Source: Amphibalanus amphitrite
Lineage: Eukaryota > Arthropoda > Thecostraca > Balanomorpha > Balanidae
NCBI RefSeq assembly: GCF_019059575.1
Contig: NW_024881989.1
Location: 62,001 to 126,000 of the forward strand
Length of the DNA stretch: 64,000 bases
Reading direction: 5' to 3'
Shown one piece after another: positions 2,895-64,000 of this stretch. How positions within the stretch are numbered: the stretch's first letter is position 1; every line of letters begins with the position of its first letter. The translations under genes were made by a program, and so were the position numbers. A model generated the notes under the pieces. That model did no database searches, was not told the origin of the DNA, and saw nothing but the letters and a program-made list of their open reading frames with translations.

Positions 2895-5800
2895 CTGGCG
2901 GCGGACGGGGGGGGGGGGGGCACTGATAGCGACAGGGGACGGGCGGATGGTGGGGGGCACTGATAGCGACAGGGGACACTTCTAGCGATAAGTTCGAGAA
3001 GCATGCATATTTCACAACGAAAACAAACGTGGATGTGTGCCAGCAACAAACATAAGTGCACTAGCAATTTTAACTTTTTTGCGACCGAACAATGAAAGGA
3101 CATACCTAGTTACTAGCTTCAGCTTCCTGACAGCTTTCGTGCGTGAAGCATCCTAGCATGATACCTATGCAATAGCACGAGATAATATGACTGAGACCAG
3201 CGAGAGCTCAGTCGGCCGAATGAGACCGGCAGTGGTCCCCGCCCGCCACTCACCCTCGCCCCCCGCCACTCACGAGTCATGGTCCCCGCCCCCCCCCCCC
3301 GCCACTCACGAGTCATGGTCCCCCCGCCACTCACGAGTCATGGTCCCCGCCCCCGCCCCCCCCCCCCCTCCCCCGCCACTCACGAGTCATGGTCCCCCGC
3401 CCGCCACTCACGAGTCATGGTCCCCCGCCCCCGCCACTCACGAGTCATGGTCCCCCCCCGCCCGCCACTCACGAGTGGTCGCCCAGCTGCTCGTAGGTGA
3501 GTTCGGCGCCCGTTTCGCGCTCGATGCGCCGGCGCCGTTTTGGCGCGAACACGGCGTCCATTTGGGCGGGTGTGGCCACCAGGCCGGACACCTGGCGGCA
3601 GGCGCGCGCCGTCTCCGTGTACGAGACGACGCGCTGCGAGAGTGACGACCGGATGGTGTACCGCTGGAGACGGAGCAGGGCCGTCAGAGCACAGAGCAGA
3701 CTGACGGAACAGAGGCCGTCAGAGCACGGAACAGACTGACGGAACAGACACCGTCAGAGCACAGAGCAGACTGACGGAACAGAGGCCGTCAGAGCACGGA
3801 ACAGACACCGTCAGAACATAGAGCAGACCGTCAGAACAGACACCGTCAGAGCACAGAGCAGACACCGTCAGAGCAGACACCGTCAGAGCACAGAGCAGAC
3901 ACCGTCAGAGCACAGAGCAGACTGACGGAACACACACCGTCAGAGCACAGAGCAGACACCGTCAGAGCACAGAGCAGACACCGTCAGAGCAGACACCGTC
4001 AGAGCACAGAGCAGACCGACGGAGCAGGGACCGTCAGAGCACAGAACAGACTGACGGAACAGACACCGTCAGAGCACAGAGCAGACTATCAGAACACAGA
4101 CACCGTCAGAGCACAGAGCAGACTGACGGAACAGACACCGTCAGAGCACAGAGCAGACTGACGGAACACAGACACCGTCAGAGCACAGAGCAGACTGACG
4201 GAAGAGACACCGTCAGAGCACAGAGCAGACTGTCAGAACAAAGACACCGTCAGAGCACAGAGCAGACTGACGGAAGAGACACCGTCAGAGCACAGAGCAG
4301 ACCGTCAGAACAGACACCGTCAGAGCACAGAGCAGACTGACGGAACACACACCGTCAGAGCACAGAGCAGACTGTCAAAACAGACACCGTCAGAGCACAG
4401 AGCAGACTGACGGAACAGACACCGTCAGAGCACAGAGCAGACTGTCAGAACACAGAACAGACTGTCAGAACAGACACCGTCAGAACACAGAGCAGACTGT
4501 CAGAGCACAGAGCAGACTGACGGAACAGACACCGTCAGAGCACAGAGCAGACTGACGGAACAGACACCGTCAGAACACAGAGCAGACTGACGGAACAGAC
4601 ACCGTCAGAACACAGAACAGACACCGTCAGAACACAGAGCAGACTGTCAGAGCACAGAGCAGACTGACGGAACAGACACCGCCAGAGCACAGAGCAGACT
4701 GACGGAACAGACACCGTCAGAGCACAGAGCAGACTGACGGAACAGACACCGTCAGAGCACAGAGCAGACTGACGGAACAGACACCGTCAGAGCACAGAGC
4801 AGACTGACGGAACAGACACCGTCAGAGCACAGAGCAGGGCCGTCAGAGCACAGAGCAGACTGACGGAACAGACACCGTCAGAACACAGAACAGACTGACG
4901 GAACAGACACCGTCAGAGCACAGAGCAGACTGTCAGAACACAGACACCGTCAGAGCACAGAGCAGACCGACGGAACACACACCGTCAGAGCACAGAGCAG
5001 ACTGACGGAACACACACCGTCAGAGCACAGAGCAGACTGACGGAACACACACCGTCAGAGCACAGAGCAGACTGACGGAACAGACACTGTCAGAGCACAG
5101 AGCAGACTGACGGAACACAGACACCGCCAGAGCACAGAGCAGACTGACGGAACAGACACCGTCAGAGCACAGAGCAGACTGACGGAACAGACACCGTCAG
5201 AGCACAGAGCAGACTGACGGAACAGACACCGTCAGAGCACAGAGCAGACTGACGGAACAGACACCGTCAGAGCACAGAGCAGGGCCGTCAGAGCACAGAG
5301 CAGACTGACGGAACAGACACCGTCAGAACACAGAACAGACTGACGGAACAGACACCGTCAGAGCACAGAGCAGACTGTCAGAACACAGACACCGTCAGAG
5401 CACAGAGCAGACCGACGGAACACACACCGTCAGAGCACAGAGCAGACTGACGGAACACACACCGTCAGAGCACAGAGCAGACTGACGGAACACACACCGT
5501 CAGAGCACAGAGCAGACTGACGGAACAGACACCGTCAGAGCACAGAGCAGACTGTCAGAACACAGAACAGACTGTCAGAACAGACACCGTCAGAGCACAG
5601 AGCAGACTGACGGAACAGACACCGTCAGAGCACAGAGCAGACTGTCAGAACACAGAGCAGATTGACGGAACAGACACCGTCAGAGCACAGAGCAGACTGA
5701 CGGAACACACACCGTCAGAGCACAGAGCAGACTGTCAAAACAGACACCGTCAGAGCACAGAGCAGACTGTCAGAACACAGACACTGTCAGAGCACAGAGC

Positions 5801-8800
5801 AGACTGACGGAACAGACACCGTCAGAGCACAGAGCAGACTGACGGAAGACACACCGTCAGAGCACAGCGCAGACTGTCAGAGCAGACACCGTCAGAGCAC
5901 AGAACAGACTGACGGAACAGACACCGTCAGAGCACAGAGCAGACTGTCAGAGCACAGAGCAGACTGACGGAACAGACACCATCAGAGCACAGAGCAGACT
6001 GACGGAACAGACACCGTCAGAGCACAGAGCAGACTGTCAGAACACAGACACTGTCAGAGCACAGAGCAGACTGACGGAACAGACACCGTCAGAGCACAGA
6101 GCAGACTGACGGAACAGACACCGTCAGAGCACAGAGCAGACTGACGGAAGACACACCGTCAGAGCACAGCGCAGACTGTCAGAGCAGACACCGTCAGAGC
6201 ACAGAACAGACAGACGGAACAGACACCGTCAGAGCACAGAGCAGACTGACGGAACACACACCGTCAGAGCACAGAGCAGACTGACGGAACAGACACCGTC
6301 AGAGCACAGAGCAGACTGTCAGAACACAGACACTGTCAGAGCACAGAGCACACTGACGGAACAGACACAGTCAGAGCACAGAGCAGACTGATGGAACAGA
6401 CACCGTCAGAGCACAGAGCAGACTGACGGAACAGACACCGTCAGAGCACAGAGCAGACTGACGGAACACACACCGTCAGAGCACAGAGCAGACTGTCAGA
6501 GCACAGAGCAGACTGACGGAACACAGACACCGTTAGAGCACAGAACAGACACCGTCAGAGCAGACACCGTCACAGCACAGAACAGACTGACGGAACAGAC
6601 ACCGTCAAAGCACAGAGCAGGGCCGTCAGAGCACAGAGCAGACTGACGGAACAGACACCGTCAGAGCACAGAGCAGACTGTCAGAACACAGACACCGTCA
6701 GAGCACAGAACAGACTGACGGAACAGACACCGTCAGAGCACAGAGCAGACTGACGGAACAGACACCGTCAGAGCACAGAACAGACTGACGGAACACACAC
6801 CGTCAGAGCACAGAGTAGACTGACGGAACACACACCGTCAGAGCACAGAGCAGACTGACGGAAAACACACCGTCAGAGCACAGAGCAGACTGACGGAACA
6901 CACACCGTCAGAGCACAGAGCACACTGACGGAACAGACACCGTCAGAGCACAGAGCAGACTGTCAGAACACAGAACAGACTGTCAGAACAGACACCGTCA
7001 GAGCACAGAGCAGACTGACGGAACAGACACCGTCAGAGCACAGAGCAGACTGACGGAACAGACACCGTCAGAGCACAGAGCAGACTGACGGAACAGACAC
7101 CGTCAGAGCACAGAGCAGACTGACGGAAGACACACCGTCAGAGCACAGCGCAGACTGTCAGAGCAGACACCGTCAGAGCACAGAACAGACTGACGGAACA
7201 GACACCGTCAGAGCACAGAGCAGACTGTCAGAGCACAGAGCAGACTGACGGAACAGACACCATCAGAGCACAGAGCAGACTGACGGAACAGACACCGTCA
7301 GAGCACAGAGCAGACTGTCAGAACACAGACACTGTCAGAGCACAGAGCAGACTGTCAGAACAGACACCGTCAGAGCACAGAGCAGACTGACGGAACAGAC
7401 ACCGTCAGAGCACAGAGCAGACTGTCAGAACACAGACACTGTCAGAGCACAGAGCAGACTGACGGAACAGACACCGTCAGAGCACAGAGCAGACTGACGG
7501 AACAGACACCGTCAGAGCACAGAGCAGACTGACGGAACAGACACCGTCAGAGCACAGAGCAGACTGACGGAACACACACCGTCAGAGCACAGCGCAGACT
7601 GTCAGAGCACAGAACAGACTGACGGAACAGACACCGTCAGAGCACAGAGCAGACTGTCAGAGCACAGAGCAGACTGACGGAACAGACACCGTCAGAGCAC
7701 AGAGCAGACTGACGGAACAGACACCGTCAGAGCACAGAGCAGACTGTCAGAACACAGACACTGTCAGAGCACAGAGCAGACTGACGGAACAGACACCGTC
7801 AGAGCACAGAGCAGACTGACGGAACAGACACCGTCAGAGCACAGAGCAGACTGACGGAACAGACACCGTCAGAGCACAGAACAGACACCGTCAGAACACA
7901 GAGCAGACTGTCAGAGCACAGAGCAGACTGACGGAACAGACACCGCCAGAGCACAGAGCAGACTGACGGAACAGACACCGTCAGAGCACAGAGCAGACTG
8001 ACGGAACAGACACCGTCAGAGCACAGAGCAGACTGTCAGAACACAGACACTGTCAGAGCACAGAGCAGACTGTCAGAACACAGACACCGTCAGAGCACAG
8101 AGCAGACTGACGGAACAGACACCGTCAGAGCACAGAGCAGACTGTCAGAACACAGACACCGTCAGAGCACAGAGCAGACTGTCAGAGCACAGAGCAGACT
8201 GACGGAACAGACACCGTCAGCGCACAGAGCAGACTGTCAGAACACAGACACTGTCAGAGCACAGAGCAGACTGACGGAACAGACACCGTCAGAGCACAGA
8301 GCAGACTGACGGAACAGACACCATCAGAGCACAGAGCAGACTGACGGAACAGACACCGTCAGAGCACAGAGCAGACTGACGGAAGACACACCGTCAGAGC
8401 ACAGAGCAGACTGACGGAACAGACACCGTCAGAGCACAGAGCAGACTGTCAGAATACAGAACAGACTGTCAGAACAGACACCGTCAGAACACAGAGCAGA
8501 CTGTCAGAGCAAGAGCAGACTGACGGAACAGACACCGTCAGAGCACAGAGCAGACTGACGGAACAGACACCGTCAGAACACAGAGCAGACTGACGGAACA
8601 GACACCGTCAGAGCACAGAGCAGACTGACGGAACAGACACCGTCAGAGCACAGAGCAGACTGACGGAACAGACACCGCCAGAGCACAGAGCAGACTGACG
8701 GAACAGACACCGTCAGAGCACAGAGCAGACTGACGGAACAGACACCGTCAGAGCACAGAACAGACACCGTCAGAACACAGAGCAGACTGTCAGAGCACAG

Positions 8801-11800
8801 AGCAGACTGACGGAACAGACACCGCCAGAGCACAGAGCAGACTGACGGAACAGACACCGTCAGAGCACAGAGCAGACCGACGGAACAGACACCGTCAGAG
8901 CACAGAGCAGACTGACGGAACAGACACCGTCAGAGCACAGAGCAGACTGACGGAACACACACCGTCAGAGCACAGAGCAGACTGTCAGAGCACAGAGCAG
9001 ACTGACGGAACACAGACACCGTTAGAGCACAGAACAGACACCGTCAGAGCAGACACCGTCACAGCACAGAACAGACTGACGGAACAGACACCGTCAGAGC
9101 ACAGAGCAGGGCCGTCAGAGCACAGAGCAGACTGACGGAACAGACACCGTCAGAGCACAGAGCAGACTGACGGAACAGACACCGTCAGAGCACAGAACAG
9201 ACTGACGGAACACACACCGTCAGAGCACAGAGCAGACTGACGGAACACACACCGTCAGAGCACAGAGCAGACTGACGGAACACACACCGTCAGAGCACAG
9301 AGCAGACTGACGGAACACACACCGTCAGAGCACAGAGCAGACTGACGGAACAGACACCGTCAGAGCACAGAGCAGACTGTCAGAACACAGAACAGACTGT
9401 CAGAACAGACACCGTCAGAGCACAGAGCAGACTGACGGAACAGACACCGTCAGAGCACAGAGCAGACTGTCAGAACACAGACACTGTCAGAGCACAGAGC
9501 AGACTGACGGAACAGACACCGTCAGAGCACAGAGCAGACTGACGGAACAGACACCGTCAGAGCACAGAGCAGACTGACGGAACACACACCGTCAGAGCAC
9601 AGCGCAGACTGTCAGAGCAGACACCGTCAGAGCACAGAACAGACTGACGGAACAGACACCGTCAGAGCACAGAGCAGACTGTCAGAGCACAGAGCAGACT
9701 GACGGAACAGACACCGTCAGAGCACAGAGCAGACTGACGGAACAGACACCGTCAGAGCACAGAGCAGACTGTCAGAACACAGACACTGTCAGAGCACAGA
9801 GCAGACTGACGGAACAGACACCGTCAGAGCACAGAGCAGACTGACGGAACAGACACCGTCAGAGCACAGAGCAGACTGACGGAATAGACACCGTCAGAGC
9901 ACAGAGCAGACTGACGGAAGACACACCGTCAGAGCACAGCGCAGACTGTCAGAGCAGACACCGTCAGAGCACAGAACAGACTGACGGAAGAGACACCGTC
10001 AGAGCACAGAGCAGACTGACGGAACACACACCGTCAGAGCACAGAGCAGACTGACGGAACAGACACCGTCAGAGCACAGAGCAGACTGTCAGAACACAGA
10101 CACTGTCAGAGCACAGAGCAGACTGACGGAACAGACACCTCAGAGCACAGAGCAGACTGACGGAACAGACACCGTCAGAGCACAGAGCAGACTGACGGAA
10201 CAGACACCGTCAGAGCACAGAGCAGACTGTCAGAACACAGACACTGTCAGAGCACAGAGCAGACTGTCAGAACACAGACACCGTCAGAGCACAGAGCAGA
10301 CTGACGGAACAGACACCGTCAGAGCACAGAGCAGACTGTCAGAACACAGACACCGTCAGAGCACAGAGCAGACTGTCAGAACACAGACACTGTCAGAGCA
10401 CAGAGCAGACTGACGGAACAGACACCGTCAGCGCACAGAGCAGACTGTCAGAACACAGACACTGTCAGAGCACAGAGCAGACTGACGGAACAGACACCGT
10501 CAGAGCACAGAGCAGACTGATGGAACAGACACCATCAGAGCACAGAGCAGACTGACGGAACAGACACCGTCAGAGCACAGAGCAGACTGACGGAAGACAC
10601 ACCGTCAGAGCACAGAGCAGACTGACGGAACAGACACCGTCAGAGCACAGAGCAGACTGTCAGATGTGACTGTCAGAACAGACACCGTCAGAACACAGAG
10701 CAGACTGTCAGAGCAAGAGCAGACTGACGGAACAGACACCGTCAGAGCACAGAGCAGACTGTCAGAACACAGACACTGTCAGAGCACAGAGCAGACTGTC
10801 AGAACACAGACACTGTCAGAGCACAGAGCAGACTGACGGAACAGACACCGTCAGCGCACAGAGCAGACTGTCAGAACACAGACACCGTCAGAGCACAGAG
10901 CAGACTGACGGAACAGACACCGTCAGAGCACAGAGCAGACTGTCAGAACACAGACACCGTCAGAGCACAGAGCAGACTGTCAGAGCACAGAGCAGACTGA
11001 CGGAACAGACACCGTCAGCGCACAGAGCAGACTGTCAGAACACAGACACTGTCAGAGCACAGAGCAGACTGACGGAACAGACACCGTCAGAGCACAGAGC
11101 AGACTGACGGAACAGACACCATCAGAGCACAGAGCAGACTGACGGAACAGACACCGTCAGAGCACAGAGCAGACTGACGGAAGACACACCGTCAGAGCAC
11201 AGAGCAGACTGACGGAACAGACACCGTCAGAGCACAGAGCAGACTGTCAGAACACAGACACTGTCAGAGCACAGAGCAGACTGTCAGAACACAGACACCG
11301 TCAGAGCACAGAGCAGACTGACGGAACAGACACCGTCAGAGCACAGAGCAGACTGTCAGAACACAGACACCGTCAGAGCACAGAGCAGACTGTCAGAGCA
11401 CAGAGCAGACTGACGGAACAGACACCGTCAGCGCACAGAGCAGACTGTCAGAACACAGACACTGTCAGAGCACAGAGCAGACTGACGGAACAGACACCGT
11501 CAGAGCACAGAGCAGACTGACGGAACAGACACCATCAGAGCACAGAGCAGACTGACGGAACAGACACCGTCAGAGCACAGAGCAGACTGACGGAAGACAC
11601 ACCGTCAGAGCACAGAGCAGACTGACGGAACAGACACCGTCAGAGCACAGAGCAGACTGTCAGAATACAGAACAGACTGTCAGAACAGACACCGTCAGAA
11701 CACAGAGCAGACTGTCAGAGCAAGAGCAGACTGACGGAACAGACACCGTCAGAGCACAGAGCAGACTGACGGAACAGACACCGTCAGAACACAGAGCAGA

Positions 11801-14800
11801 CTGACGGAACAGACACCGTCAGAGCACAGAGCAGACTGACGGAACAGACACCGTCAGAGCACAGAGCAGACTGACGGAACAGACACCGCCAGAGCACAGA
11901 GCAGACTGACGGAACAGACACCGTCAGAGCACAGAGCAGACTGACGGAACAGACACCGTCAGAGCACAGAACAGACACCGTCAGAACACAGAGCAGACTG
12001 TCAGAGCACAGAGCAGACTGACGGAACAGACACCGCCAGAGCACAGAGCAGACTGACGGAACAGACACCGTCAGAGCACAGAGCAGACCGACGGAACAGA
12101 CACCGTCAGAGCACAGAGCAGACTGACGGAACAGACACCGTCAGAGCACAGAGCAGACTGACGGAACACACACCGTCAGAGCACAGAGCAGACTGTCAGA
12201 GCACAGAGCAGACTGACGGAACACAGACACCGTTAGAGCACAGAACAGACACCGTCAGAGCAGACACCGTCACAGCACAGAACAGACTGACGGAACAGAC
12301 ACCGTCAGAGCACAGAGCAGGGCCGTCAGAGCACAGAGCAGACTGACGGAACAGACACCGTCAGAGCACAGAGCAGACTGACGGAACAGACACCGTCAGA
12401 GCACAGAACAGACTGACGGAACACACACCGTCAGAGCACAGAGCAGACTGACGGAACACACACCGTCAGAGCACAGAGCAGACTGACGGAACACACACCG
12501 TCAGAGCACAGAGCAGACTGACGGAACACACACCGTCAGAGCACAGAGCAGACTGACGGAACAGACACCGTCAGAGCACAGAGCAGACTGTCAGAACACA
12601 GAACAGACTGTCAGAACAGACACCGTCAGAGCACAGAGCAGACTGACGGAACAGACACCGTCAGAGCACAGAGCAGACTGTCAGAACACAGACACTGTCA
12701 GAGCACAGAGCAGACTGACGGAACAGACACCGTCAGAGCACAGAGCAGACTGACGGAACAGACACCGTCAGAGCACAGAGCAGACTGACGGAACACACAC
12801 CGTCAGAGCACAGCGCAGACTGTCAGAGCAGACACCGTCAGAGCACAGAACAGACTGACGGAACAGACACCGTCAGAGCACAGAGCAGACTGTCAGAGCA
12901 CAGAGCAGACTGACGGAACAGACACCGTCAGAGCACAGAGCAGACTGACGGAACAGACACCGTCAGAGCACAGAGCAGACTGTCAGAACACAGACACTGT
13001 CAGAGCACAGAGCAGACTGACGGAACAGACACCGTCAGAGCACAGAGCAGACTGACGGAACAGACACCGTCAGAGCACAGAGCAGACTGACGGAATAGAC
13101 ACCGTCAGAGCACAGAGCAGACTGACGGAAGACACACCGTCAGAGCACAGCGCAGACTGTCAGAGCAGACACCGTCAGAGCACAGAACAGACTGACGGAA
13201 GAGACACCGTCAGAGCACAGAGCAGACTGACGGAACACACACCGTCAGAGCACAGAGCAGACTGACGGAACAGACACCGTCAGAGCACAGAGCAGACTGT
13301 CAGAACACAGACACTGTCAGAGCACAGAGCAGACTGACGGAACAGACACCTCAGAGCACAGAGCAGACTGACGGAACAGACACCGTCAGAGCACAGAGCA
13401 GACTGACGGAACAGACACCGTCAGAGCACAGAGCAGACTGTCAGAACACAGACACTGTCAGAGCACAGAGCAGACTGTCAGAACACAGACACCGTCAGAG
13501 CACAGAGCAGACTGACGGAACAGACACCGTCAGAGCACAGAGCAGACTGTCAGAACACAGACACCGTCAGAGCACAGAGCAGACTGTCAGAACACAGACA
13601 CTGTCAGAGCACAGAGCAGACTGACGGAACAGACACCGTCAGCGCACAGAGCAGACTGTCAGAACACAGACACTGTCAGAGCACAGAGCAGACTGACGGA
13701 ACAGACACCGTCAGAGCACAGAGCAGACTGATGGAACAGACACCATCAGAGCACAGAGCAGACTGACGGAACAGACACCGTCAGAGCACAGAGCAGACTG
13801 ACGGAAGACACACCGTCAGAGCACAGAGCAGACTGACGGAACAGACACCGTCAGAGCACAGAGCAGACTGTCAGATGTGACTGTCAGAACAGACACCGTC
13901 AGAACACAGAGCAGACTGTCAGAGCAAGAGCAGACTGACGGAACAGACACCGTCAGAGCACAGAGCAGACTGTCAGAACACAGACACTGTCAGAGCACAG
14001 AGCAGACTGTCAGAACACAGACACTGTCAGAGCACAGAGCAGACTGACGGAACAGACACCGTCAGCGCACAGAGCAGACTGTCAGAACACAGACACCGTC
14101 AGAGCACAGAGCAGACTGACGGAACAGACACCGTCAGAGCACAGAGCAGACTGTCAGAACACAGACACCGTCAGAGCACAGAGCAGACTGTCAGAGCACA
14201 GAGCAGACTGACGGAACAGACACCGTCAGCGCACAGAGCAGACTGTCAGAACACAGACACTGTCAGAGCACAGAGCAGACTGACGGAACAGACACCGTCA
14301 GAGCACAGAGCAGACTGACGGAACAGACACCATCAGAGCACAGAGCAGACTGACGGAACAGACACCGTCAGAGCACAGAGCAGACTGACGGAAGACACAC
14401 CGTCAGAGCACAGAGCAGACTGACGGAACAGACACCGTCAGAGCACAGAGCAGACTGTCAGAACACAGAACAGACTGTCAGAACAGACACCGTCAGAACA
14501 CAGAGCAGACTGTCAGAGCAAGAGCAGACTGACGGAACAGACACCGTCAGAGCACAGAGCAGACTGACGGAACAGACACCGTCAGAACACAGAGCAGACT
14601 GACGGAACAGACACCGTCAGAGCACAGAGCAGACTGACGGAACAGACACCGTCAGAGCACAGAACAGACACCGTCAGAACCATTAGCGTCGCCACGGGGG
14701 GGGCAAGCGGGGCAGCTTGCCCCCCCAACCTCGGACCGGGCACCCCCTGAGATCGATACAGATCCGATGAGATTTTGGAGTCGGGAAAAAATTGGGGGGG

Positions 14801-17800
14801 GGGGTACCTTTCTGAGAATGTGTGTAAGGTCAGACTCGGTTGGAGCGTGCAGTTCAAACCAGAGTCAGAGTCGCAGTCGCCAAAATCTTCAAGACTCCGA
14901 CTCCAGACTCGGAAATGTCAATGCTGTGATTCATTCCATGTTCCTAGTTGGTTCTTTATTACATTTTATAGCTGATTTTCATAAGTTTTGGAGTGCTGAC
15001 ACATAATTTTCGTTCAAAGCGTGACACGAAATCTATGGGGCTTTTCTCGACTCGTCAAATGTCTGCGACAGGCGCAAGTACCGTTCAAGTGCCGCAGGGC
15101 TCATGAGCCTGCTTTTCACACAGGCTCCTAAGGAGCTCCACTGATGTCTAAGAAGCTTTCAGAGGGCCCAAACCGGCCTCTGAGAGTCCCACTGGTGTCC
15201 ATGTTCTCTGAGGGCCCATACAGGGATCTTTTAGGACCTTATAAATACGTAGACCTCTGAAGGGCCACACGAATCTTTGAGGATGCCTTCGAAAATTTCT
15301 GAGAACCTTAACTGGCCTCTGATAGTTCAGCCGAACTTTTGAAGCGACAGACTTTGCTACCCCCCAGCCGGCATCTAAGGGGTCACAACTCACGTGTCCC
15401 TATGAGGGCCGCAACACATGTTTCTTATGTCCCTATACGTAGGGTCCTTAGGGATTCAACACAGACCCCAACGGTTCACACTTATCCGAGGGCTCTAGGC
15501 TCACCCTGGGCCTAGTCTCTTAGCGCCCGCCGCCTACACTGGCTTCTGAGGGCCCCACCTTGGGCTCGGAAAGCCGTAAAGCACCACATACACGTAAATA
15601 TTTGGGGTGACCCACGCCGATCTCCGGGATCCTAAGCAGGCTTCTGAGAGTCCACACTGACCCTGAGTGGCCTGAGATGGCCTGGAAGTCCAAAGCCTAT
15701 CTCTAAGGGATCCATTGCCGCTATGCCGTGCGTAACTTTTGGCTCCGTTTAACATTTTTGTTCACGTTTGCAGTGCTTCCCTTCACACGAAAAACAAGAA
15801 ACTTTTTGTTCGCACTCGAGTGAACAAAACATTTCCTCCCACTGGAGCAAAGATAAATTACCAACTAATTTACTTCCGATTCACACTTCCGACATTCGCT
15901 CTCAGTCTCCGTCGAATGCCCAATTCTTAGCTACAATCGGCGGCTGGGATAAGTTCTATGCATTTCACGTAAAATCTCTGCATGCATGCGTGAATGGAGG
16001 TTTTAGCAGGGTGATCCGATTAAATGGAGCGTTTTTCACCTTTTTCTGGGTAATGATCATGAGTGACGAGAGTCTGCACAGGGACCCTCTGCAGTGCGTC
16101 GTCAATTGCAGCCACTGTAATTCTACCCAGGGGTGCGGAGCCGGAGCCGGAACTGGAGCCCGAGCCGCCGGAGCCGGCACATTTTGCCCGGAGCCGGAGC
16201 CGGAGCCGTGAAACAATATATGTAGCCCGGAGCCGGAGCTGGAGCCGGAGCCGTCAAAAAAGGGGGCGACTCCGGCTCCTTTTTTAAGAGGAAAAATTAT
16301 TGACCTAGTTCGGTTTGACAGTTCATGGCAGTAAAACATGCGGTATTCAAAATATGAAAATAGCCTTGTTATGCAAATTCAGAAGCATCGTGCACCAATC
16401 CCATCGTCTTTTTTCTTCCACCCGTATTTAATTGTATAGGGGATGTACTGAGCATTTGGAGCCGGAGCCGGAGCCGGAGCCGCCGGAGCCGGACCATTTT
16501 ACTCGGAGCCGGAGCCGGAGCCGGAGCCGCCATGGCATTTCACCCGGAGCCGGAGCCGGAGCCGATTTTTTTCTCCGGAGCCGGAGCCGGAGCCGTCTGA
16601 AATTCCAACGGCTCCGCATCCCCGAATTTCTACCGGTCGTTTTCAGGGGCCCGGGAACGATTTTCAAGTTGGGGGGGCGAGCCTAAAATGCCTGACATGA
16701 TGCATAGGTATGAAACAGTGGCGTAGCTAGGGGTCTAAGGGGACACGTACCCCCCCCCCCCCCCCATCGGGATAAAAGGGACCCTCGGGTCCGAGGGGCC
16801 CTGCGGCGCCATTGGACCGCTGAGGGTTAACGATGGCCATATTTCTACTCAGAAGGGCGCCATGGGGCTCGTTAGAGCACCTCATGGGCCCTAAATAGCC
16901 ACACTAAGATCTCCATAAGGGCCCCACGCCGGCTTCTGAGGGCCTCTTGCGGCTTTTTAAGGGCACCTCGGTGGTCTCCAAAGGCCCGTTACTGGCCTCT
17001 GAGAGGTCTTACCGGCCTATGAGGGGCCGGTTCTAGGGGCATTTCCCGCCTGTGATGGTCCCACACTTATTTTTCTGAGGGCCCATAACGGCAACTGTGA
17101 GGCCCTCGTCGGCGCCTATGAGGGCCCACACCGGTGTCTCTGAGGGTTTCACACCCCCCAACTCTGAGTGCCTACACCAGTGCCTATTAAAGCCCTATAT
17201 CGGCGGCTCTGAGGACCCAACCAACACCTGCGCATCTAAAGGCCACCCACTGCAACTGGTGACTTTTGAGGGCCCCACACCGGTGACTTGAGGGCCCCAC
17301 CGACGTCTGACAGTACCATGCCGGTCTCTAAGGACCCCACAGGACTTCTTCTGCCGGCCTAAGGACCCCTTGCCGGTCACTGAGACCCCCTGCCGGCTTG
17401 TAGAGATTTTGCGACAGCAGCTCTAAAGGCCCCACACCCGTCTGTAACGGCTCCACACCAGCGTCTATGAGGGCCCACAGCAACGCCTGTAAGGACCCTC
17501 ATCGGCGCCTCTGAGAGAATCACACTAGCACCTCTGAGCGCCCACACCGGCACCTGCATGGCGGTCCCACACCGGTGCCTCATAAAGGCCCATTACCGGC
17601 GGCTCTGAGGGCCCTACGCCGGTGATTCTGAGGGTGCTACCGATAACCGAAGGCACCACACATGACACAAGCCCTTAGTGTCGCTGAGCTTTAATCCCAT
17701 ACCGGCCCTCCGAGGGCGCCACGTCAGTGCACTCATTGCCCCACACCCCTCCATCACACCCGGAGCGGGTAAACTGTGTTATACCTATAGCAACGATTTT

Positions 17801-55986: not shown

Positions 55987-55994
55987 TCTCTTAG

Positions 55995-56306: not shown

Positions 56307-56422
56307 TCTCTTAGGTATGCAACATATTCATTTGAAGAATGCTTACCTCTGATTTCTTAGGTGCACGCCGTTGCAAATGTATCAAAAAAAACGCACAATG
56401 ACAGATAACACGAAAATTGATG

Positions 56423-56760
56423 TCGCCGAGTGGATTCGAACCACCTGCATCCATATCACCATTCCGATACTCCAACCACTGCGCCACGGCGGCAACACGT
56501 ACGACGGAGTTTAAATGTCGTTAAGTTAAAACTTAGCTTCAATAGACTCCACCAAGGGCGAGGACCGAACGTATGACGCCACGCTGACGTCACTCAAGAG
56601 GCACGCTATTGGTCGGGCCGATTCGTGTAATACTATTGGCGAATACGCGGCCGGGGTCGTGAAACCGTGACAACGGTAAGGGCCGGCCAGGCGGCCAACC
56701 CTCAAAAGCGAGGGGCCCTCAAACTAGGGAGTGATAGCCATGCTTTCGAGTACCTAGCAA
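56423..56760 (-). other. Repeat module R1 with tRNA-like 3' part, copy 2 (inverted)
   Basis: On the minus strand the module (CTTTTGAGGGTTGGCCGCC, then CGTATTCGCCAATAGTATTA) precedes a tRNA-like sequence at 56497-56423. That sequence has box A TGGCGCAGTGGTTGGAG, box B GGTTCGAATCC and an acceptor stem that pairs with at most one mismatch. It could be a working tRNA gene or a well-preserved retroposon head. The anticodon cannot be fixed safely by eye. Confidence 0.6.
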
Positions 56761-56914: not shown

Positions 56915-57296
56915 GTACAGTCCTCTGCACACTGCGCGGTAGGTATTCTTTTTTCGACAAAACCTATAATAGCTCAAAGACTATGTTATCAGTCGGTCGG
57001 AACTCATTGCACATAGATTCGCCATGCTCCACTCCTTCGATTGGGTGTATCACTGACAAAGTATACGCCTAGTGTTGCAGCAAAATGCAAAAGTTTGTTT
57101 TGGGGGCAAATATAAACTTTCGTGTTTCGTTGCCAAACTGGATGGAAAATGTATACCATGATAAGCCCAATCTAAGGTGCGGAGTCTCGCGCGTCTTGCT
57201 GTTACGATTTCTGAGTGACAGATAACATAGTATTCGAGTTATTCTCGGTTTTGTCGAAAAAAGAATACCTACCACGCAGTGTGCAGAGGGCTGTAC
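56915..57296. mobile_element. MITE family M1, copy 2
   Basis: About 380 bp with inverted ends (GTAGGTATTCTTTTTTCGAC at 56939 mirrored by GTCGAAAAAAGAATACCTAC at 57253). The interior is shared with 24168-24562 (TTTTGGGGGCAAATATAAAC). GTACAG/CTGTAC lie at the outer edges. It sits about 170 bp upstream of the RASSF start codon, so it may contribute promoter or 5' UTR sequence. Confidence 0.8.
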
Positions 57297-57461
57297 CTAT
57301 GACAACATGTAAACCTATGTTGAAATTGTTTGTCTTCCGCCTCACGAACACTATAAGACTGTCGAATATAGCAGCGGCGTTTTGCCGGGCATCTACATTG
57401 TACTCTGGTCATTGCAGGGGTCGGACGGTGGCGCCTGCATTAATGCTACACACATTTCAAG
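57297..57461 (+). promoter_or_regulatory. 5' flank / probable 5' UTR of the RASSF gene
   Basis: Sequence between MITE M1 and the start codon. GTCATTGCAG at 57408-57417 could be an acceptor, in which case the first coding exon begins with untranslated bases and another exon lies upstream. No TATA box is apparent. The context of the ATG (TTTCAAGATG) is acceptable for translation. Confidence 0.4.
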
Positions 57462-57501
57462 ATGTGGAAGTGCAGAAGGTGCGAGAAACCGGTGTTCTTC
57501 G
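57462..57501 (+). CDS. Rassf: RASSF exon 1 (start of LIM domain)
   Basis: The coding part is only 40 bp: ATG then WKCRRCEKPVFF, ending G|GTAAGT. It supplies the first zinc ligand pair C4-x2-C7. The leftover G joins CC of the next exon to give Ala, producing VFFAERKQS, the expected LIM continuation. It is too short to be found by frame length alone. The next exon's phase and sequence confirm it. Confidence 0.85.
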
Positions 57502-60500
57502 GTAAGTGACGCTTCGTACTGGAATTACGATTAAATTGAATGCGCTGTTCCTTCAGCTCGGCTGTTTTGAACTCTGTTGAAGGTGTTTCGCTCAGAGTGC
57601 CTCTGACGTTGCCGCTGTTTGTCTGTGGCACGCCGGCTGAAGGGTGACGCGGCTGGGGCTGATGTTCCGCCGGTACCTACCCACTGCCGCCGGTACCTAC
57701 CCACTGCCACCGGTACCTACCCACTGCCACCGGTACACGCCGGCTGACCTGGTGTGTTGTGCGCTGCAGCCGAACGGAAGCAGAGCATGGGCTACGACTG
57801 GCACCCCGAGTGTCTGCGCTGCGACGAGTGCGGCAAGCGGCTCAACCCGGGCCAGCACGCCGAGGTACGACTGACGGCCGACTCGGTAACTGGGGGGGTG
57901 CCCGCCGGGCCAGCACGCAGAGGTACGACTGACGACTCGGTAACCGGGGGGTGGCCGCCGTCCCAGAGGTACGACTGACGACTCGGTAACCGGGGGGTGG
58001 CCGCCGTCCCAGAGGTACGACTGACGACTCGGTAACCGGGGGGGGGGGGGTGCCCGCCGTCCCAGAGGTACGACTGACGACTCGGTAACCGGGGGGGTGC
58101 CCGCCGTCCCAGAGGTACGACTGACGACTCGGTAACCGGGGGGGTGCCCGCCGTCCCACCCTGCTGGCCGTATCGGCTCCTCCCACCCGGGCTGGGGCGG
58201 CACCGTCTCACCAGCTGGTCCCAACACTGCCGAATCGGCTTCGACGCCAACATATTCAGACTCACAGCGGCTCATGTGGTGTACCCTTCTCTTTTCATTA
58301 GCTCCTATTAAAGCTTCATGCAAAGGAACATTGACTGTCTGAGCAGCGTTAGGTGTTGGGTGTTGTTTGTCCCGGCTGGGCTGTGGAGTGTGGCGTGCTG
58401 TCACGTGCGGCGCCGCCGCTGGGCGCTGACGGTGGCCGCGCCTCCGGCAGCACAAGGGCAGCCCGTACTGCCACGTGCCCTGTTACGGCGCGCTGTTCGG
58501 GCCGCACCTGTTCGGCCACGGCACGCACGTGGAGGCGCACGTCAGCTTCGGGCGGCGCGACTCTGCGCCGGAGAGTCCGCGGCAGCCGGACCAGGAGCTG
58601 CTGGCGCGCCAGCTGAGGGCCTACAACCAGTACCACGAGAGCAGCCGCACCCAGATACACAGCCGGGAGGTGAGACCGGACCCAGATCCACAGCCGGGAG
58701 GTGAGACCGCGGGCCAGATCCACAGCCGGACCCAGATCCACAGCCGGTAGGTGAGACCGGACCCAGATACACAGCCGGGAGGTGAGACCGCGGGCCAGAT
58801 CCACAGCCGGACCCAGATCCACAGCCGGGAGGTGAGACCGCGGGCCAGATCCACAGCCGGACCCAGATCCACAGCCGGGAGGTGAGACCGGACCCAGATA
58901 CACAACCGGCAGGTGAGACCGGACCCAGATCCACAGCCGGCAGGTGAGACCGGACCCAGATCCACAGCCGGGAGGTGAGACCCGGGACCCAGATCCACAC
59001 AGTGTACAGCCGGCCGGCCGGTATACACTGTACAGCCGGCCGGCCGGTATACACTGTACAGCCGTCCGGCCGGTATACCCTGTACAGCCGGCCGGTATGC
59101 ACTGTACAGCCGGCCGGCCGGTATACCCTGTACAGCCGGCCGGTATACACTGCACAGCCCGCCGGCCGGTATACACTGTACAGCCGGCCGGTATGCACTG
59201 TACAGCCGGCCGGTATACACTGTACAGCCGGCCGGCCGGTCCGGTATCATCCCTGCGGTGTCGTTGTCATTGACTCCCTCCCCCCCCCCCCGCCCCCTCT
59301 GCAGCGTAACGGGCGTCTCATACTGGACGGCGTGCTCAAACTGTACTGGGGGGTCAACAAACTACTCCAGTTCAAAGAGGACGACGACCAACGACCCATC
59401 GTCCGAAAACGCCATTCCCAGTGGATACAGGTGGGACTCGGTGATACTGCGGGACTCCGACACTGGATAATGTGGGATTCTAACACTGAATACCGGTGGG
59501 ACTCTGTGATACTGTGGGACTCTAACACTGGATACTGTGGGACTCTGTGATACTGTGGGACTCCGACATTGGATAATGTGGGACTCTGTGAGTGGATACT
59601 GGTGGGCCAATGGCCCAATGCTCAGTGGGCGGGTGCTGGGTCGGGTGCGTATTATTTAGGCCAGGGTTCATAATGTCCAGGGCACGATGTGTCCAGTGCT
59701 CAAAATGGCCAGTGCCTTGAATTGGCCAGTGCTCATATTGTCCAGGATTACATAGTCCAAATATGGCCAACTGGCTGCAGATGGGGTAAATTCAAAGAGG
59801 CCAGGGTTCATAATGTCCAGGGCACGATGTGTCCAGTGTTCGAAATGGCCAGGGCTCATAATGTCCAGAGCACGATGTGTCCAGTGTTAGAAATGGCCAG
59901 GGTTCATAATGTCCAGGGCACGATGTGTCCAGTGCTCAAAATGGCCAGTGCGTTGAATGGGCCAGAGTTCATGGTGTCCAGGGATTACATAGTCAACCCA
60001 ACCAAACCTAACCTAACCTAACCTAAGGTAATGCTGTTTGCCTACCGGGGATAAGGAAATAGTTTCTCGCATGAATAGATTGCAAGCAATAGTAAATCAA
60101 ATATTTTTAGGTTAAGCGGTTATGTATCTGGCTTCAGGCCGAAGCCTGAAGCCAGATACATAACCACTTAACCTAAAAATATTTGATTTACTATTGCCTG
60201 TAATCTCTCCTAACTCCTAAGGCATTGCCTTTGGCACTGCACTGCTTCGCATTGAGCTGGTTCCGTGTTTTTTTTTTTACATAATGACGTCACTTTCAGT
60301 GGCTATGTAGGTAATCCCTGGACATTATGAACTCTGGCCCATTCAAGGCACTGGCCATTTTGAGCACTGGACACATCGTGCCCTGGACATTATGAACCCT
60401 GGCCATTTCTAACACTGGACACATCGTGCCCTGGACATTATGAACCCTGGCCATTTCCAACACTGGACACATCGTGCCCTTGACATTATGAACCCTGGCC

Positions 60501-63500
60501 TCTTTGAATATACCCTATTTGCAGCCAGTTGGCCGCATTTGGACCGTGCAATCCCTGGACATGATTAACTCTGGCCCATTCAAGGCACTGGCAATTTCGA
60601 CACTGGGCATATCGTACCCTGGACATTATGAATCCTGGCCAGGATGAATGCTCCCCGCTGGGTCTGACCCGCCCCCCCCCCCCCCGTCACCCTGTCTCAG
60701 CCGACGCGCAGTGAGGCGGTGGACTCGGGCTCGGACTCGGAGTCGGGCTCCCGGCCGGCCACGCCAGCACCGTCGCCGGCGCGCGGCCCGCCGCGCAGCC
60801 AGAGCGTCACGCCGCACGCGCTCAGTCAGCTGACGTATCCGCCAGTGGACACCGACTCGGGACACGGCACGCAGACGCAGACGGAGACGGACGCCGAGAC
60901 GGGCGCCGAGGTACGGGCCGACCGCGCGGCGGCACAGACCCGCACAGAGCCACACAGAGATCCACACAGACCCACACAGACCCAGACACAGAGTACAGAC
61001 CCACATAGACCGGCACAGACCCTCACAGACCCACACAGACCCGCACAGAGCCACACACAGAGTACAGACCCACACAGACCCACACAGACCGGCACAGACC
61101 CGCACAGAGCCACACAGAGATCCACACAGACCCACACAGACCCAGACACAGAGTACAGACCCACATAGATCGGCACAGACCCTCACAGACCCACACAGAC
61201 TGGCACAAACCCAGACACAGAGTACAGACCCACACAGACCCACACAAACCGGCACAGACCCTCACAGACCCACACAGACCCTCACAGACCCACACAGACC
61301 CTCACAGACCCACACAGACCCACACAGACCCTCACAGACCCACACAGACCCCGACATAGAGTACAGACCCACACCAAACCCCTACAGACCCTCGCATGAC
61401 CTGTATGGACCCTGTGTGACCTCTGTGTGACCTCTCTCTGACCTCTGTGTGACCTCTCTCTGACCTCTGTGTGACCTCTCTCTGACCTCTGTGTGACCTC
61501 TATCTGACCTCTGTGTGACCTCCCTGTGACCTCTGTGTGAGCTCAATCTGACCGTGACCTCTGTGTGACCTCTGTATGACCCCCCTCTGACCTCTGTGTG
61601 ACCTGTGACCCCCCTCTGACCGCTGTCAGGTGGAGGTGAACGGCCACCGCGCCGCCGAGGAGGGCGTCGAGAAGGGTCAGCTCGAGTCGGCAGAGGTGGA
61701 GAACTCGGACAAGGAGCCGCCGCCGCCGCCGCCCGGCCCGCCGCCGCGGGTCGACTCCTCGCCCACCGACGAGTCGACCACGGAGCCGCCGCTCCGCGCT
61801 CCGGCCAAATCGCGCGTCATCCGCCGCCGGCCCGGACGGCGCATGAACAAGGCCAAGGTCAAGGTGAGGTCGTGTCGGGGTCACTCTGGGAACCAGCCGG
61901 CCGGGGTGAAGGCGGCTGGTGGCCGGCGCTCGGGAGCTGTGAGCCGTCCCGCACTGTGCCAGGGTCGGTGGGTGGTGTATGGGTGTCAGATTAGTGCCCG
62001 GCTCGGCCGGTCTGTCGGCTGCCTGTTTGGGGCGGGAGGCGGCCGGAGCTCAGTGTGGGCGCCGCTCCAGTCGGGGCGGCGGGGACACGGGCAGAGTGGT
62101 GGGACACTGACTGCGACCGGACGGCGCCTCCCTACCCTACCCCCCGCGTGTGTCGCCCTGTGGTGGCCGCTGTCCGCCGTGTGCTGATCGCCGCCTGTGC
62201 CGCAGCGGCGCTGCTCCATCAACGGACACTACTACAACCGGGAGACGTCTGTGTTCACGCCGCCGCACGGCTCGGCCCTCTCGGTCTGGGTCACCTCGCT
62301 GGTCACCTGCCGGGAGATGATCGACATGGTGCTCGACAAGTACCGCGTCGAGGACCGCGCCGACAACTTCGCCCTCTACATCGTCTGGGACTCGGGAGGT
62401 GCGCCGCCAGGGCAGGGCACGGGCCGGGGGGAAGGGGGCCGGGTCGGGAGGCGGGGGATCGCCCTGATGTCGGCTGGTGTCGGCTGTCGGCGGCCGACAT
62501 CCGCCGCCCGGGCTGCGGTCGTGGCTCGTGGGTGCGACCCAACTTATACAGGGTGTCCGGAAATTATTGGCCCCTCCATCAGTTCGCCGCCATAATAAAT
62601 AAACAAAGAGCCCCCGGGTCATGGTTTATTTACCGATTTATCTCCTGCCCTGTCCTACCCATTCCCTCATCCGCTTTGGTATTCCATAGACCAAGATGTC
62701 CAGAGTATCCGCGCTGATGCTGAGCCACACCCTTCACAGGTTCCTCTAAAGTCCGTTTCCTCTGGGACTGCTGGTACAATCTTGCTGAGCTCCTCCTTCA
62801 TGATTTCCCATTGGTTTTCGATCGGGATTAGGACAGAGGATTCGACTGAGGACAGAGGATTTTGACTTTCTACTTCATTTCAGTCTTTACCATAAGTTCA
62901 GCGCGATGATGCTTTGTCAAATAGTTTCTTTCGTCATAGTAGACACCACGTTCAGGTGCGAGTTACGTCTGAAACAGACTCTTTCCGCAGTCAGGAAATC
63001 GCATGCGAGATCCTTTTCAAATACATGGAAGCACGCTCGCATCAATCGCATGCACCTCCCGCAAGCGATTGATGCGAGAAGAATTATAATGTATTTGAAT
63101 AGGCTCTCGCATGCGATTTCCTGAACGCGGAAAGAGTCTGTTTCAGCCTTTACTTCTGCCAAACACTGGCCCCTGGCGCCTCGCAAGTGTCAAGGTCAAG
63201 TGACCGGGTTAGGTGACCGGGTTAGGTCATGTGACTAACGGACAGCTGTGGATAGCCTGAGGCACGGTCTTAGCAAATTTCCAACAGTTATTACAGCGCA
63301 CGGTGATATTATAGCTGGATGAACAAGGGACAAATAATTTCCGGACACCCTGTAGTGCTGTGACGTGCGCGCTGACCGGCGCGCTGACCTGCGCTGACCT
63401 GCGCGCTGACCTTGTGCGCCGTGTGCGGCCAGAGCGGCGCCGACTGCGCAGCGACGAGTACCCGCTGCTGACGCGGATAGCCAGCGGACCGTCCGAGGCG

Positions 63501-64000
63501 GCCGCCCGGCTCTTCGTCATGGACCGCGAGACCACGGCCGAAATCAGTGAGTGGACCCCGGGACCCCCCCCCCCCCCACCACCACCACCACCACAACCAC
63601 AACCACCACCACCTGTAGAAAAAAAAAACTTTAACTGTACATCTGGCTGCCTAACTGTATATCTGTCTAAATGTGTATCTGTCTTACTGTATCTGTCTGA
63701 CTGTATAGCTGACTGTGTATCTGCCTGTCTGACTGTATATCTGACTGTGTAATGTATATCTGACTGTGTATCTACCTGTCTGACTGTATATCTGACTGTG
63801 TATCTGCCTGTCTGACTGTATATCTGACTGTGTATCTACCTGTCTGACTGTATATCTGACTGTGTATCTACCTGTCTGACTGTATCTGACTGTGTATCTG
63901 GCCGTCTGACTGTATATCTCATATCTGACTGTGTATCTGACTGTGTATCTGACCGTCTGACTGTGTATCTGACTGTGTATCTGACCGCCAGGGAGCGACG
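57462..64000 (+). CDS. Rassf: LIM-domain RASSF protein (gene runs off the right edge)
   Basis: Coding exons: 57462-57501, 57770-57864, 58451-58669, 59305-59430, 60701-60910, 61630-61863, 62206-62398, 63433-63546 and 63992 onward. All borders are GT/AG and all phases agree. The protein begins MWKCRRCEKPVFFAERK and holds one complete LIM domain: C4-x2-C7-x17-H25-x2-C28-x2-C31-x2-C34, then YCHVPCY. An acidic/Pro-rich linker follows (residues about 120-308). Next is a Ras-association domain from about 309 (CSINGHYYNRETSVFTPP, FALYIVWDSGE, EYPLLTRIASGPSE). LIM plus RA is the arthropod RASSF plan; the SARAH domain, expected next, is outside the window. Family members are scaffolds linking Ras-type GTPases and Hippo-pathway kinases or phosphatase complexes; the role here is inferred from the domains. 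Confidence 0.9.
57672..57735 (+). repeat. 20-bp tandem repeat, about three and a half copies, in RASSF intron 1
   Basis: Unit CCGGTACCTACCCACTGCC, lying 35 bp upstream of the acceptor at 57767-57769. It is another small tandem repeat near a splice site, although here the unit does not include the acceptor itself. Confidence 0.85.
57770..57864 (+). CDS. Rassf: RASSF exon 2 (LIM domain, central part)
   Basis: 95 bp between acceptor GTGCGCTGCAG and donor GAG|GTACGA. It encodes ERKQSMGYDWHPECLRCDEC and GKRLNPGQHAE, including ligands H25, C28, C31 and C34. The sequence is very close to the insect LIM-RASSF as I remember it. Its last bases plus the donor form the unit of the adjacent minisatellite. 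Confidence 0.93.
57850..58165 (+). repeat. Minisatellite made of copies of the exon 2 splice donor
   Basis: Six to seven units of about 45-50 bp. Each contains AGAGGTACGACTGACGACTC followed by GGTAACCGGGGGGTG and GCCGCCGTCCC. The first unit straddles the real border (CAGCACGCCGAG|GTACGACTGACGGCC), and the second still carries GGGCCAGCACGCAGAG from the exon. G-runs vary in length between units. Confidence 0.9.
58166..58450 (+). other. RASSF intron 2, remainder
   Basis: Unique sequence leading to the acceptor CCTCCGGCAG. No element is recognised. Confidence 0.5.
58451..58669 (+). CDS. Rassf: RASSF exon 3 (end of LIM domain)
   Basis: 219 bp (73 codons), acceptor CTCCGGCAG and donor GAG|GTGAGA. 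HKGSPYCHVPCYGALFGPH completes the LIM zinc-binding site with C52 and C56, in the style of CRIP-type LIM domains. It is followed by LFGHGTHVEAHVSFG and a linker ending YNQYHESSRTQIHSRE. Phase 0 at both ends. Confidence 0.92.
58648..58990 (+). repeat. Minisatellite made of copies of the exon 3 splice donor
   Basis: About ten units, mostly 31 bp. Each contains ACCCAGATCCACAGCCGGGA then GGTGAGACCG, a copy of the exon end (ACCCAGATACACAGCCGGGAG) plus donor. In several units GGGAG is replaced by GGAC or GGCAG, which weakens the copied junction. The first unit is the authentic border. Confidence 0.92.
58998..59245 (+). repeat. GC-rich minisatellite with CCGGCCGG cores
   Basis: Ten or so units of 22-26 bp of the form ACTGTACAGCCGGCCGGTAT. 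Each unit is largely self-complementary, so the array can form many small hairpins. It directly follows the donor-derived array in the same intron. Confidence 0.9.
59305..59430 (+). CDS. Rassf: RASSF exon 4
   Basis: 126 bp (42 codons) between acceptor CCCCCTCTGCAG and donor CAG|GTGGGA. It encodes RNGRLILDGVLKLYWGVNKL, then LQFKEDDDQRPIVRKRHSQWIQ. The LKLYWGV...KEDDD stretch is characteristic of LIM-type RASSF proteins as I recall them. Phase 0 at both ends. Confidence 0.92.
59419..59610 (+). repeat. Minisatellite made of copies of the exon 4 splice donor region
   Basis: Units of about 30-35 bp read GTGGGACTCGGTGATACTG, GGACTCCGACACTGGATAAT and GTGGGACTCTGTGATACTG. The exon end GTGGATACAG|GTGGGACTCGG is echoed by CTGGATACTGTGGGACTCTG. 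The array begins at the border itself. Confidence 0.82.
59659..60640. mobile_element. 0.98-kb inverted-repeat element in RASSF intron 4
   Basis: GGCCAGGGTTCATAATGTCC at the left is mirrored by the right end (GGACATTATGAATCCTGGCC). Several internal copies of the same block (GGCACGATGTGTCCAGTG) point outward in both arms (59680-59980 and 60310-60620). The centre holds (CCTAA)n at 60002-60030 and a 110-bp palindrome at 60087-60196. No coding capacity or clear target duplication. Confidence 0.82.
60087..60196. repeat. 110-bp near-perfect palindrome
   Basis: The left arm starts CAATAGTAAATCAAATATTT and runs to GGCTTCAGGC. The right arm mirrors it, ending AAATATTTGATTTACTATTG, with only a couple of central or arm mismatches (AAGCGG against CCACTT). 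It could extrude as a cruciform or fold as a hairpin in RNA. Confidence 0.93.
60701..60910 (+). CDS. Rassf: RASSF exon 5 (Ser/acidic linker)
   Basis: 210 bp (70 codons), acceptor CCTGTCTCAG, donor GAG|GTACGG. It encodes PTRSEAVDSGSDSESGSRP, a Pro-rich stretch and ALSQLTYPPVDTDSG, then QTQTETDAETGAE. The composition suggests a disordered, phosphorylatable linker between LIM and RA. There is no domain of its own; membership in the gene rests on phase and position. Confidence 0.82.
60940..61375 (+). repeat. CACACAGACC minisatellite in RASSF intron 5
   Basis: Tandem 10-12 bp words (CACACAGACCCACACAGACC, GGCACAGACC, CTCACAGACC) are arranged in longer units of roughly 90-120 bp marked by GACACAGAGTACAGACC. 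The reverse-strand frames (GLCGSV repeats) are artefacts. Confidence 0.9.
61385..61629 (+). repeat. Pyrimidine-rich minisatellite abutting the exon 6 acceptor
   Basis: About 20 words of the type CTCTGTGTGACCTCTCTCTGA run directly into CCCCTCTGACCGCTGTCAG, the exon 6 acceptor. The repeat word (CTCTGACC) is the polypyrimidine tract of that acceptor, amplified. Confidence 0.88.
61630..61863 (+). CDS. Rassf: RASSF exon 6 (linker before RA domain)
   Basis: 234 bp (78 codons), acceptor CGCTGTCAG, donor AAG|GTGAGG. It encodes VEVNGHRAAEEGVEKGQLES, a poly-Pro run (KEPPPPPPGPPPR) and KSRVIRRRPGRRMNKAKVK. The poly-Pro run could bind SH3 or WW domains. The basic end leads into the RA domain. Phase 0 at both ends. 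Confidence 0.85.
61864..62205 (+). other. RASSF intron 6, no repeats
   Basis: 342 bp of GC-rich, apparently unique sequence. With intron 3 of the other gene, it is one of two introns here without a visible minisatellite or transposon. Confidence 0.6.
62206..62398 (+). CDS. Rassf: RASSF exon 7 (Ras-association domain, first part)
   Basis: 193 bp, acceptor CCTGTGCCGCAG, donor G|GTGCGC. It encodes RRCSINGHYYNRETSVFTPP, GSALSVWVTSLVTCREMIDM, VLDKYRVEDRADNFALYIVW and DSG. It follows the ubiquitin-like RA fold as known in RASSF proteins: strand, hairpin with YNRETSVFTP, helix, and strand FALYIV. It leaves one base, completed in exon 8. Confidence 0.94.
62549..63352 (-). mobile_element. mariner/Tc1-like remnant in RASSF intron 7
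   Basis: CAGGGTGTCCGGAAATTATT at the left and the exact inverse at the right are flanked by TA on both sides (62547-62548, 63353-63354). On the minus strand a fragment reads IENQWEIMKEELSKIVPAVP, resembling the region around the last catalytic residue of Tc1/mariner transposases, soon followed by frame disruption. At 804 bp the element is an internally deleted, inactive copy. A separate hairpin element sits inside it (62969-63148). Confidence 0.85.
62969..63148. mobile_element. 180-bp hairpin element nested in the mariner remnant
   Basis: CTGAAACAGACTCTTTCCGC at the left is mirrored exactly at the right (GCGGAAAGAGTCTGTTTCAG). The arms remain largely complementary inward (AGGAAATCGCATGCGAGA against TCTCGCATGCGATTTCCT). 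It is a small MITE or foldback inserted after the mariner. Confidence 0.82.
63355..63432 (+). repeat. Short GCGCTGACC repeats abutting the exon 8 acceptor
   Basis: Five copies of a GCGCTGACCTGC-like word lie directly upstream of GTGTGCGGCCAG, the acceptor of exon 8. It is a small version of the acceptor-linked arrays seen elsewhere in these genes. Confidence 0.7.
63433..63546 (+). CDS. Rassf: RASSF exon 8 (Ras-association domain, second part)
   Basis: 114 bp, acceptor GTGCGGCCAG, donor A|GTGAGT. It encodes ERRRLRSDEYPLLTRIASGP, SEAAARLFVMDRETTAEI. The pattern LRDDEYPLxxRxxxGPxExxxRLFxxD is a hallmark of RASSF RA domains. It takes two bases to complete Glu and leaves one. Confidence 0.94.
63547..63991 (+). 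repeat. RASSF intron 8: C-rich start, then acceptor-derived minisatellite
   Basis: After the donor there is a C-run and a CCA-triplet run (63565-63613). From 63640 to 63991 units of 12-40 bp (CTGACTGTGTATCTACCTGT, CTGACTGTATAT) run straight into CTGTGTATCTGACCGCCAG, the next acceptor. The pyrimidine-rich word of the acceptor is again the repeat unit. Confidence 0.85.
63992..64000 (+). CDS. Rassf: RASSF exon 9, first nine bases
   Basis: GGAGCGACG follows the acceptor GACCGCCAG. With the A left by exon 8 it reads Arg-Ser-Asp, continuing towards the expected NEVAQFLN-like start of the post-RA segment. The exon and the expected SARAH domain continue outside the window. Confidence 0.6.

Follow-up and report, generated by a model that had tools for sequence, protein, structure and literature searches.

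Tandem duplications straddling exon-intron borders in genes of Amphibalanus amphitrite

The searchable assembly of Amphibalanus amphitrite holds 807.6 Mb in 2644 contigs, and the 64-kb stretch of DNA analysed here (the window) is one part of it. Two of its genes are considered here, and their proposed exon borders were rebuilt from the sequence (Table 1). LIM, RA and SARAH domains were recovered from the joined exons of the plus-strand RASSF gene, and the joined exons of the minus-strand gene gave a zinc-knuckle match, with yeast AIR2 as the best PDB match. By eye, LINE reverse-transcriptase-like sequence lies upstream of the start of the zinc-knuckle gene (34200-36000, minus strand), and ARAGORN predicts a tRNA-Thr (GGT) gene at 56419-56494, also on the minus strand.

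Table 1. Genes of the window and the tandem arrays at their splice borders. Junction and exon-alone p values are from the comparison of border probes with dinucleotide shuffles described in the text.
Feature	Position	Strand	Properties
Zinc-knuckle (AIR2-like) gene	2297..34097	-	eight proposed coding exons; exon 1 with frame break
Donor-type array, zinc-knuckle intron 2895-3472	3240..3472	-	TRF periods 25-30; junction p=0.003, exon alone p=0.15
Minisatellite in 20-kb intron	3664..23590	-	35/105-bp periods; intron end repeated, exon not
Donor-type array, opposite end of 20-kb intron	23600..23908	-	junction p=0.003, exon alone p=0.003
Acceptor-type array	27232..27500	-	49-bp unit; junction p=0.003, exon alone p=0.007
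Acceptor-type array	28107..32964	-	TRF periods 46/82/128; junction p=0.003, exon alone p=0.020
RASSF gene	57462..63546	+	LIM-RA-SARAH; coding exons 1-8; exon 9 from 63992, runs past window
Donor-type array, RASSF intron 2	57850..58158	+	46-47-bp unit; junction p=0.003, exon alone p=0.003
Donor-type array, RASSF intron 3	58642..58999	+	31/50-bp units; junction p=0.003, exon alone p=0.003
Weaker donor-type array, RASSF intron 4	59419..59610	+	junction p=0.003, exon alone p=0.10
Array reaching acceptor of RASSF intron 5	61385..61629	+	intron end repeated; exon not copied
Array reaching acceptor of RASSF intron 8	63640..63991	+	intron end repeated; exon not copied

Tandem arrays (TRF, period 7 or more) account for 73% of the 15 introns and for 11% of 33087-57461, a stretch that includes the first zinc-knuckle exon. 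TRF coverage amounts to 45.6% in the whole window, 21-35% in three 10-kb flanks, one of which overlaps the gene that runs on past the window end, and 0-16% in 17 stretches at arbitrary places on other contigs. The minisatellite of the 20-kb intron takes up most of that intron, with a break at about 14670-18380, and the acceptor-type array at 28107..32964, about 4.9 kb long with 114 TRF copies of its 46-bp unit, makes up 98% of its host intron. The claim that only two introns are free of arrays and transposons was roughly right for arrays, as scored by TRF at periods of at least 7: 61864-62205 indeed has none, but the other intron named, 26832-27137, is 12% array, while 24026-24705 also has none; 62399-63432 follows with 8%. 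At 59693-60630, RASSF intron 4 carries 16/48-bp repeats in two oppositely oriented arms, resembling a MITE with repetitive ends, and an AACCT (TTAGG-like) run lies between them. TTAGG-like repeats and a RASSF with a LIM domain point to an arthropod. Elsewhere in the window, TRF reports a 365-bp unit present twice at 50943-51655 (98% match), and 43001-44426 is an array of 10-bp CTGAGTCGGT-type units, preceded by an array of related, inverted sequence.

The original prediction was that about a dozen of these arrays begin at an exon border and that most of their units contain its sequence. TRF detected the arrays where they had been placed, and the comparison with shuffled junctions that had been proposed was run on the window, using a 30-nt probe (20 exon and 10 intron nucleotides) against its own intron and 300 dinucleotide shuffles. 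Among the 30 junctions of the 15 introns (the last RASSF acceptor probe, at the window end, having only 19 nt), seven reached the floor of p=0.003. The seven comprise five donors (first intron base at 3472, 23908, 57865, 58670 and 59431) and two acceptors (first exon base at 28116 and 27231). Taken by itself, the exon part was significant at five of them (p<=0.02), the exceptions being 59431 (p=0.10) and 3472 (p=0.15), and supported copies were located at one border of each window intron. The dozen therefore falls to seven of 12 arrays. Three more, at 61385-61629, 63640-63991 and 3664-23590, repeat the last 30 intron nucleotides (p=0.002) but not the exon, so that even the largest array, 20 kb in size, adjoins its border without copying exon sequence. 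For the arrays at 63355-63432 (RASSF intron 7) and 25277-26065, the latter listed as a likely acceptor-type case, the window tests did not support border copying. Of the seven arrays assigned to acceptors, 27232-27500 and 28117-32965 hold exon sequence, whereas the other five do not.

Individual units reproduce their borders closely (a slash marks the splice border). Units of the 3240..3472 array include ACTC/GTGAGTGGCGG, those of 28107..32964 include CTGTCCAG/TGTGTCGCTG, and the nearest copy in 57850..58158 reads GGGCCAGCACGCAGAG/GTACGACT. The units are similar to CACCCCGGCCACCAGTGTGGCGACGAG/GTGGGTAA in 23600..23908, to CTCAG/ACCGCGGGTGGGA in 27232..27500 (unit length 49 bp) and to ACCCAGATACACAGCCGGGAG/GTGAGACC in 58642..58999. 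Just beyond the window, the next RASSF intron has a partial exon-end copy without GT (p=0.006). Since each supported unit matches the border beside it and is unlike the others, these units do not represent one repeat family, and the view that no single mobile repeat is responsible holds.

An independent sample was taken from the assembly by family searches (myosin head and protein kinase), and exons were chosen by family match before their sequence was seen. This sample is small and hand-picked from the match lists, and its borders are defined by family matches and a custom splice matrix. For the myosins, 13 loci were fetched from 100 listed matches and 12 were scanned (L025, 99.8% like L024, was left out); nine entered the placement test, L022, L027 and L030 being dropped as second haplotypes. 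For the kinases, 32 exons inside the domain, from different genes as far as could be told, were hand-picked from 140 listed matches; 26 entered the test after removal of second haplotypes or close paralogues, of which L064 has two border events and L037, L042, L058, L061 and L063 have none by scan. As a null model, each minimal-period seed was slid across its own locus at present intron lengths, with wholly exonic positions barred. One cluster was skipped as a whole-exon duplication, and the window itself was excluded because it had been chosen for the observation.

The 35 loci, with 111 defined borders, yielded 25 local tandem-duplication events, and ten of these span a border, compared with 2.24 expected by random placement (P=1.6e-5). 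The excess was found in either family, with five of six events for the kinases (0.94 expected, P=3.7e-4) and five of 19 for the myosins (1.30 expected, P=6.8e-3). If the odds of detecting border events are doubled, P becomes 2.3e-3, and if they are tripled, 0.023. These figures supersede an earlier placement test with the longest seed (5/6, P=3.8e-3). Most borders are unaffected, copies being present at ten of the 111 sampled. Inspected by eye, the remaining 15 events comprise nine that look interior, four that adjoin a border without an exon copy and two at Myo5 borders, which were counted as non-border because their exons are absent from the family matches.

Once the two window genes are included, border-spanning copies are present in eleven genes of this one assembly, and border events were found on thirteen contigs; the expectation that the effect reaches beyond two genes is thereby confirmed in myosin and kinase exons. 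A muscle-myosin donor carries an 84-bp repeat, another muscle-myosin gene has a border-spanning duplication at one acceptor, and a further myosin has such duplications at one donor and two acceptors. The first and the last of these three are direct examples of the few-copy stage. Two more events belong to Myo5, at exons outside the family matches. The kinase events involve four donors (L041, L044, L048 and L057) and one acceptor (L039, weaker), and L064, a near-copy of L044, has events at both donor and acceptor. L044 is the clearest kinase case, with TACATCAGTCCAGAGATCCTCCGC/GTGAG repeated at 29-bp spacing.

Probes from the ends, starts and middles of 51 exons were compared. At p<=0.01, six exon ends matched their downstream side and six exon starts their upstream side, compared with three and four for mid-exon control probes, all but one of the latter coming from duplicated exons of L027, L028 and L031. 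When the duplicated whole exons of these three loci were omitted, end and start probes gave three and three matches and mid-exon probes zero and one; among these residual matches, the end-probe match of L029 concerns intron sequence only and the mid-exon match, at L026, is borderline. The duplicated whole exons lie side by side in muscle-myosin genes (L027 3682-4675, L028 5134-6108 and L031 3160-3493) and were left out of the counts; presumably they are mutually exclusive exons, as in insects. A first pass over the myosins, in which five of 21 resolved pairs were judged wrong and dropped, was nearly negative, with one of 32 junctions at p<0.01 in the 16 resolved introns tested, most of them short. 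Array units from the 17 arbitrary stretches contained a good donor in 0 of 31 cases, the same as shuffles; this donor-motif test is insensitive, because no excess is seen either among 45 arrays from the window plus flanking DNA.

We then considered what the copies themselves have retained. Of 49 donor copies, 42 still carry the GT, where flank identity would predict about 73%; three of the seven copies without GT are off-register matches. Such retention could mean that selection keeps the extra splice-site copies as useful, for example as back-up or regulatory sites. However, the GT excess is weak because the copies are not independent, and donors have been lost in the second (intronic) copy of the 84-bp muscle-myosin repeat, where AT stands in place of GT, and in Myo5 (CTGAGT). 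In addition, most unit lengths are not multiples of three, so that use of an inner copy would often shift the frame. We therefore regard selection for useful copies as improbable.

Between exons and copies, 21 of 44 distinct codon differences are synonymous, which departs from full neutrality (p=5e-4) and not from the 39% expected for a constrained exon (p=0.14); the raw count of 55/86 was discarded because it is pseudo-replicated. This fits a constrained exon beside neutral intronic copies. The same pattern would be expected if junctions had no mutational bias at all, with tandem duplications arising everywhere in short introns, exonic ones being purged, and border ones being tolerated and decaying more slowly because their exon copy is under selection. 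The general richness of the window introns in arrays agrees with such an account, as do the nine interior-looking events and the four that adjoin a border without an exon copy. Against it, border events exceed random placement even when their detectability is doubled, and nearly all kinase events lie at borders. An absence of bias is thus possible, although we consider it rather unlikely.

Near-duplicate contigs, read here as putative haplotypes, differ in copy number at several loci, which indicates that turnover is recent. Counting the true border in each case, a Myo5 donor has three near copies on one contig versus one on the other, with an additional older copy common to both; a Myo5 acceptor with a 96-bp unit has five versus two; and a muscle-myosin acceptor has three versus two. 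In the kinase donor array of L044/L064 the units differ, and the exon end on one contig is similar to the second array unit on its counterpart. This one locus suggested that exon ends exchange with array units, an idea that the codon test does not need and that was not retained. Four loci show no difference. For RASSF intron 3 and L048, identical copies are present on a second contig (C1487 for RASSF) in pairs with 100% identity across the pieces queried, which may be duplicates made in assembly; the L041 and L057 pairs align colinearly at 96% and 92%. In Myo5, a 20-bp minisatellite of L023 (4554-5037) has no counterpart in L022 and sits within about 1.2 kb of extra sequence.

The contig pairs C492/C1487 and C867/C1438 are 100% identical over the queried pieces, from which it follows that the assembly contains unpurged haplotypes or duplicates. 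Near-duplicate contigs of this kind might raise the concern that the repeats are an assembly artefact of collapsed or misjoined sequence. Yet the units differ by substitutions, contigs about 91-96% alike have older copies in common, and the border events are spread over thirteen contigs, which makes an artefact scarcely credible. It is also very improbable that the repeats are relics of intron origin by tandem duplication of exon segments with AG/GT. Passages of PMC3087553 propose that some globin introns of amphioxus came from mirages in this way, but the window copies are confined to one border per intron and several loci vary between putative haplotypes.

Taken together, many genes contain tandem duplications of segments of roughly 25-125 bp that straddle exon-intron borders, and both donors and acceptors are affected. 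The duplications range from one or two extra copies to minisatellites that fill much of the intron, with more than 100 copies by TRF. We propose that this probably reflects border-biased tandem duplication, followed by tolerance and then expansion. A short tandem duplication, caused by slippage or by end joining or template switching after a break, would initially arise at splice borders more commonly than at other sites of the gene. It would be tolerated because the outermost copy, beside the exon body, presumably remains the spliced one and the extra copies become intronic decoys, whereas selection would remove duplications wholly within exons. Unequal exchange and slippage could then expand the array. 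The original prediction of a process that amplifies splice-junction DNA is supported by the 4.5-fold excess over random placement, but part of this excess may instead reflect tolerance of border-spanning copies and the slower decay of their exon copy. Border events stay visible longer because their exon copy is constrained, whereas both copies of an intron-intron pair decay. This slower decay accounts for part of the excess, and a junction-directed mutation bias, as judged from genomic sequence, is accordingly favoured but not proven.

The precedent cited in the original prediction, the mirages of amphioxus, is correct. As described in passages of PMC3087553 and PMC3902484, mirage genes include Adh3, the globins BflGb6 and BflGb9 and troponin C, with similar repeats in PGBD5; their units are about 10 to 160 bp long, many with AG/GT signals, and copy number varies between haplotypes. 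The same passages suggest regular splicing, from Adh3 data and globin RT-PCR, and PMC3087553 reports somatic instability of the Adh3 mirage. The structures found here match these mirages, which in those passages are known from a handful of genes: the unit includes sequence from both the exon and the intron side of its border (seven of 30 window junctions and ten sampled events), both 5' and 3' borders are affected, and copy number differs between putative haplotypes (Myo5 donor and acceptor, muscle-myosin acceptor). Unlike the amphioxus cases as presented there, they occur in an arthropod rather than a cephalochordate, in eleven genes of one assembly and with an array of about 4.9 kb and more than 100 TRF copies; the border excess was measured against placement, and the structures are known from genomic sequence alone. 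The Rogers model of intron gain by tandem duplication, as cited in PMC3087553, likewise duplicates a segment with splice signals, and parts of PMC2891723 and PMC4974935 describe cases in Drosophila and potato; here, in contrast, existing introns grow at their borders. In the literature searched, with most subscription papers outside its scope, we found no report of arthropod border-spanning minisatellites. Introners are families of introns that multiply. Introner-like elements, in the portion of PMC4457414 consulted, also tie repeated DNA to introns, whereas each locus here has its own unit matching its own border, and the supported units do not form one family.

What is new is the lineage, the number of genes (eleven), the scale of the arrays, the presence of few-copy stages beside grown arrays and the estimate of enrichment. 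A curiosity of lancelet genes thereby becomes measurable across many genes in another lineage, with a possible explanation for intron growth and for genic minisatellites. More tentatively, a splicing- or transcription-coupled process may make junctions hotspots of tandem duplication, with intron size set largely by junction-seeded minisatellites. If this were true, coding exon ends would join fast-evolving arrays, and a sizeable share of borders would be affected, as in the sample. Duplicated splice sites are also a supply for alternative splicing and intron gain. Because few-copy alleles and grown arrays occur in one genome, the path from duplication to minisatellite is directly testable, and the genes described here offer a system for asking whether splicing or transcription guides mutation.
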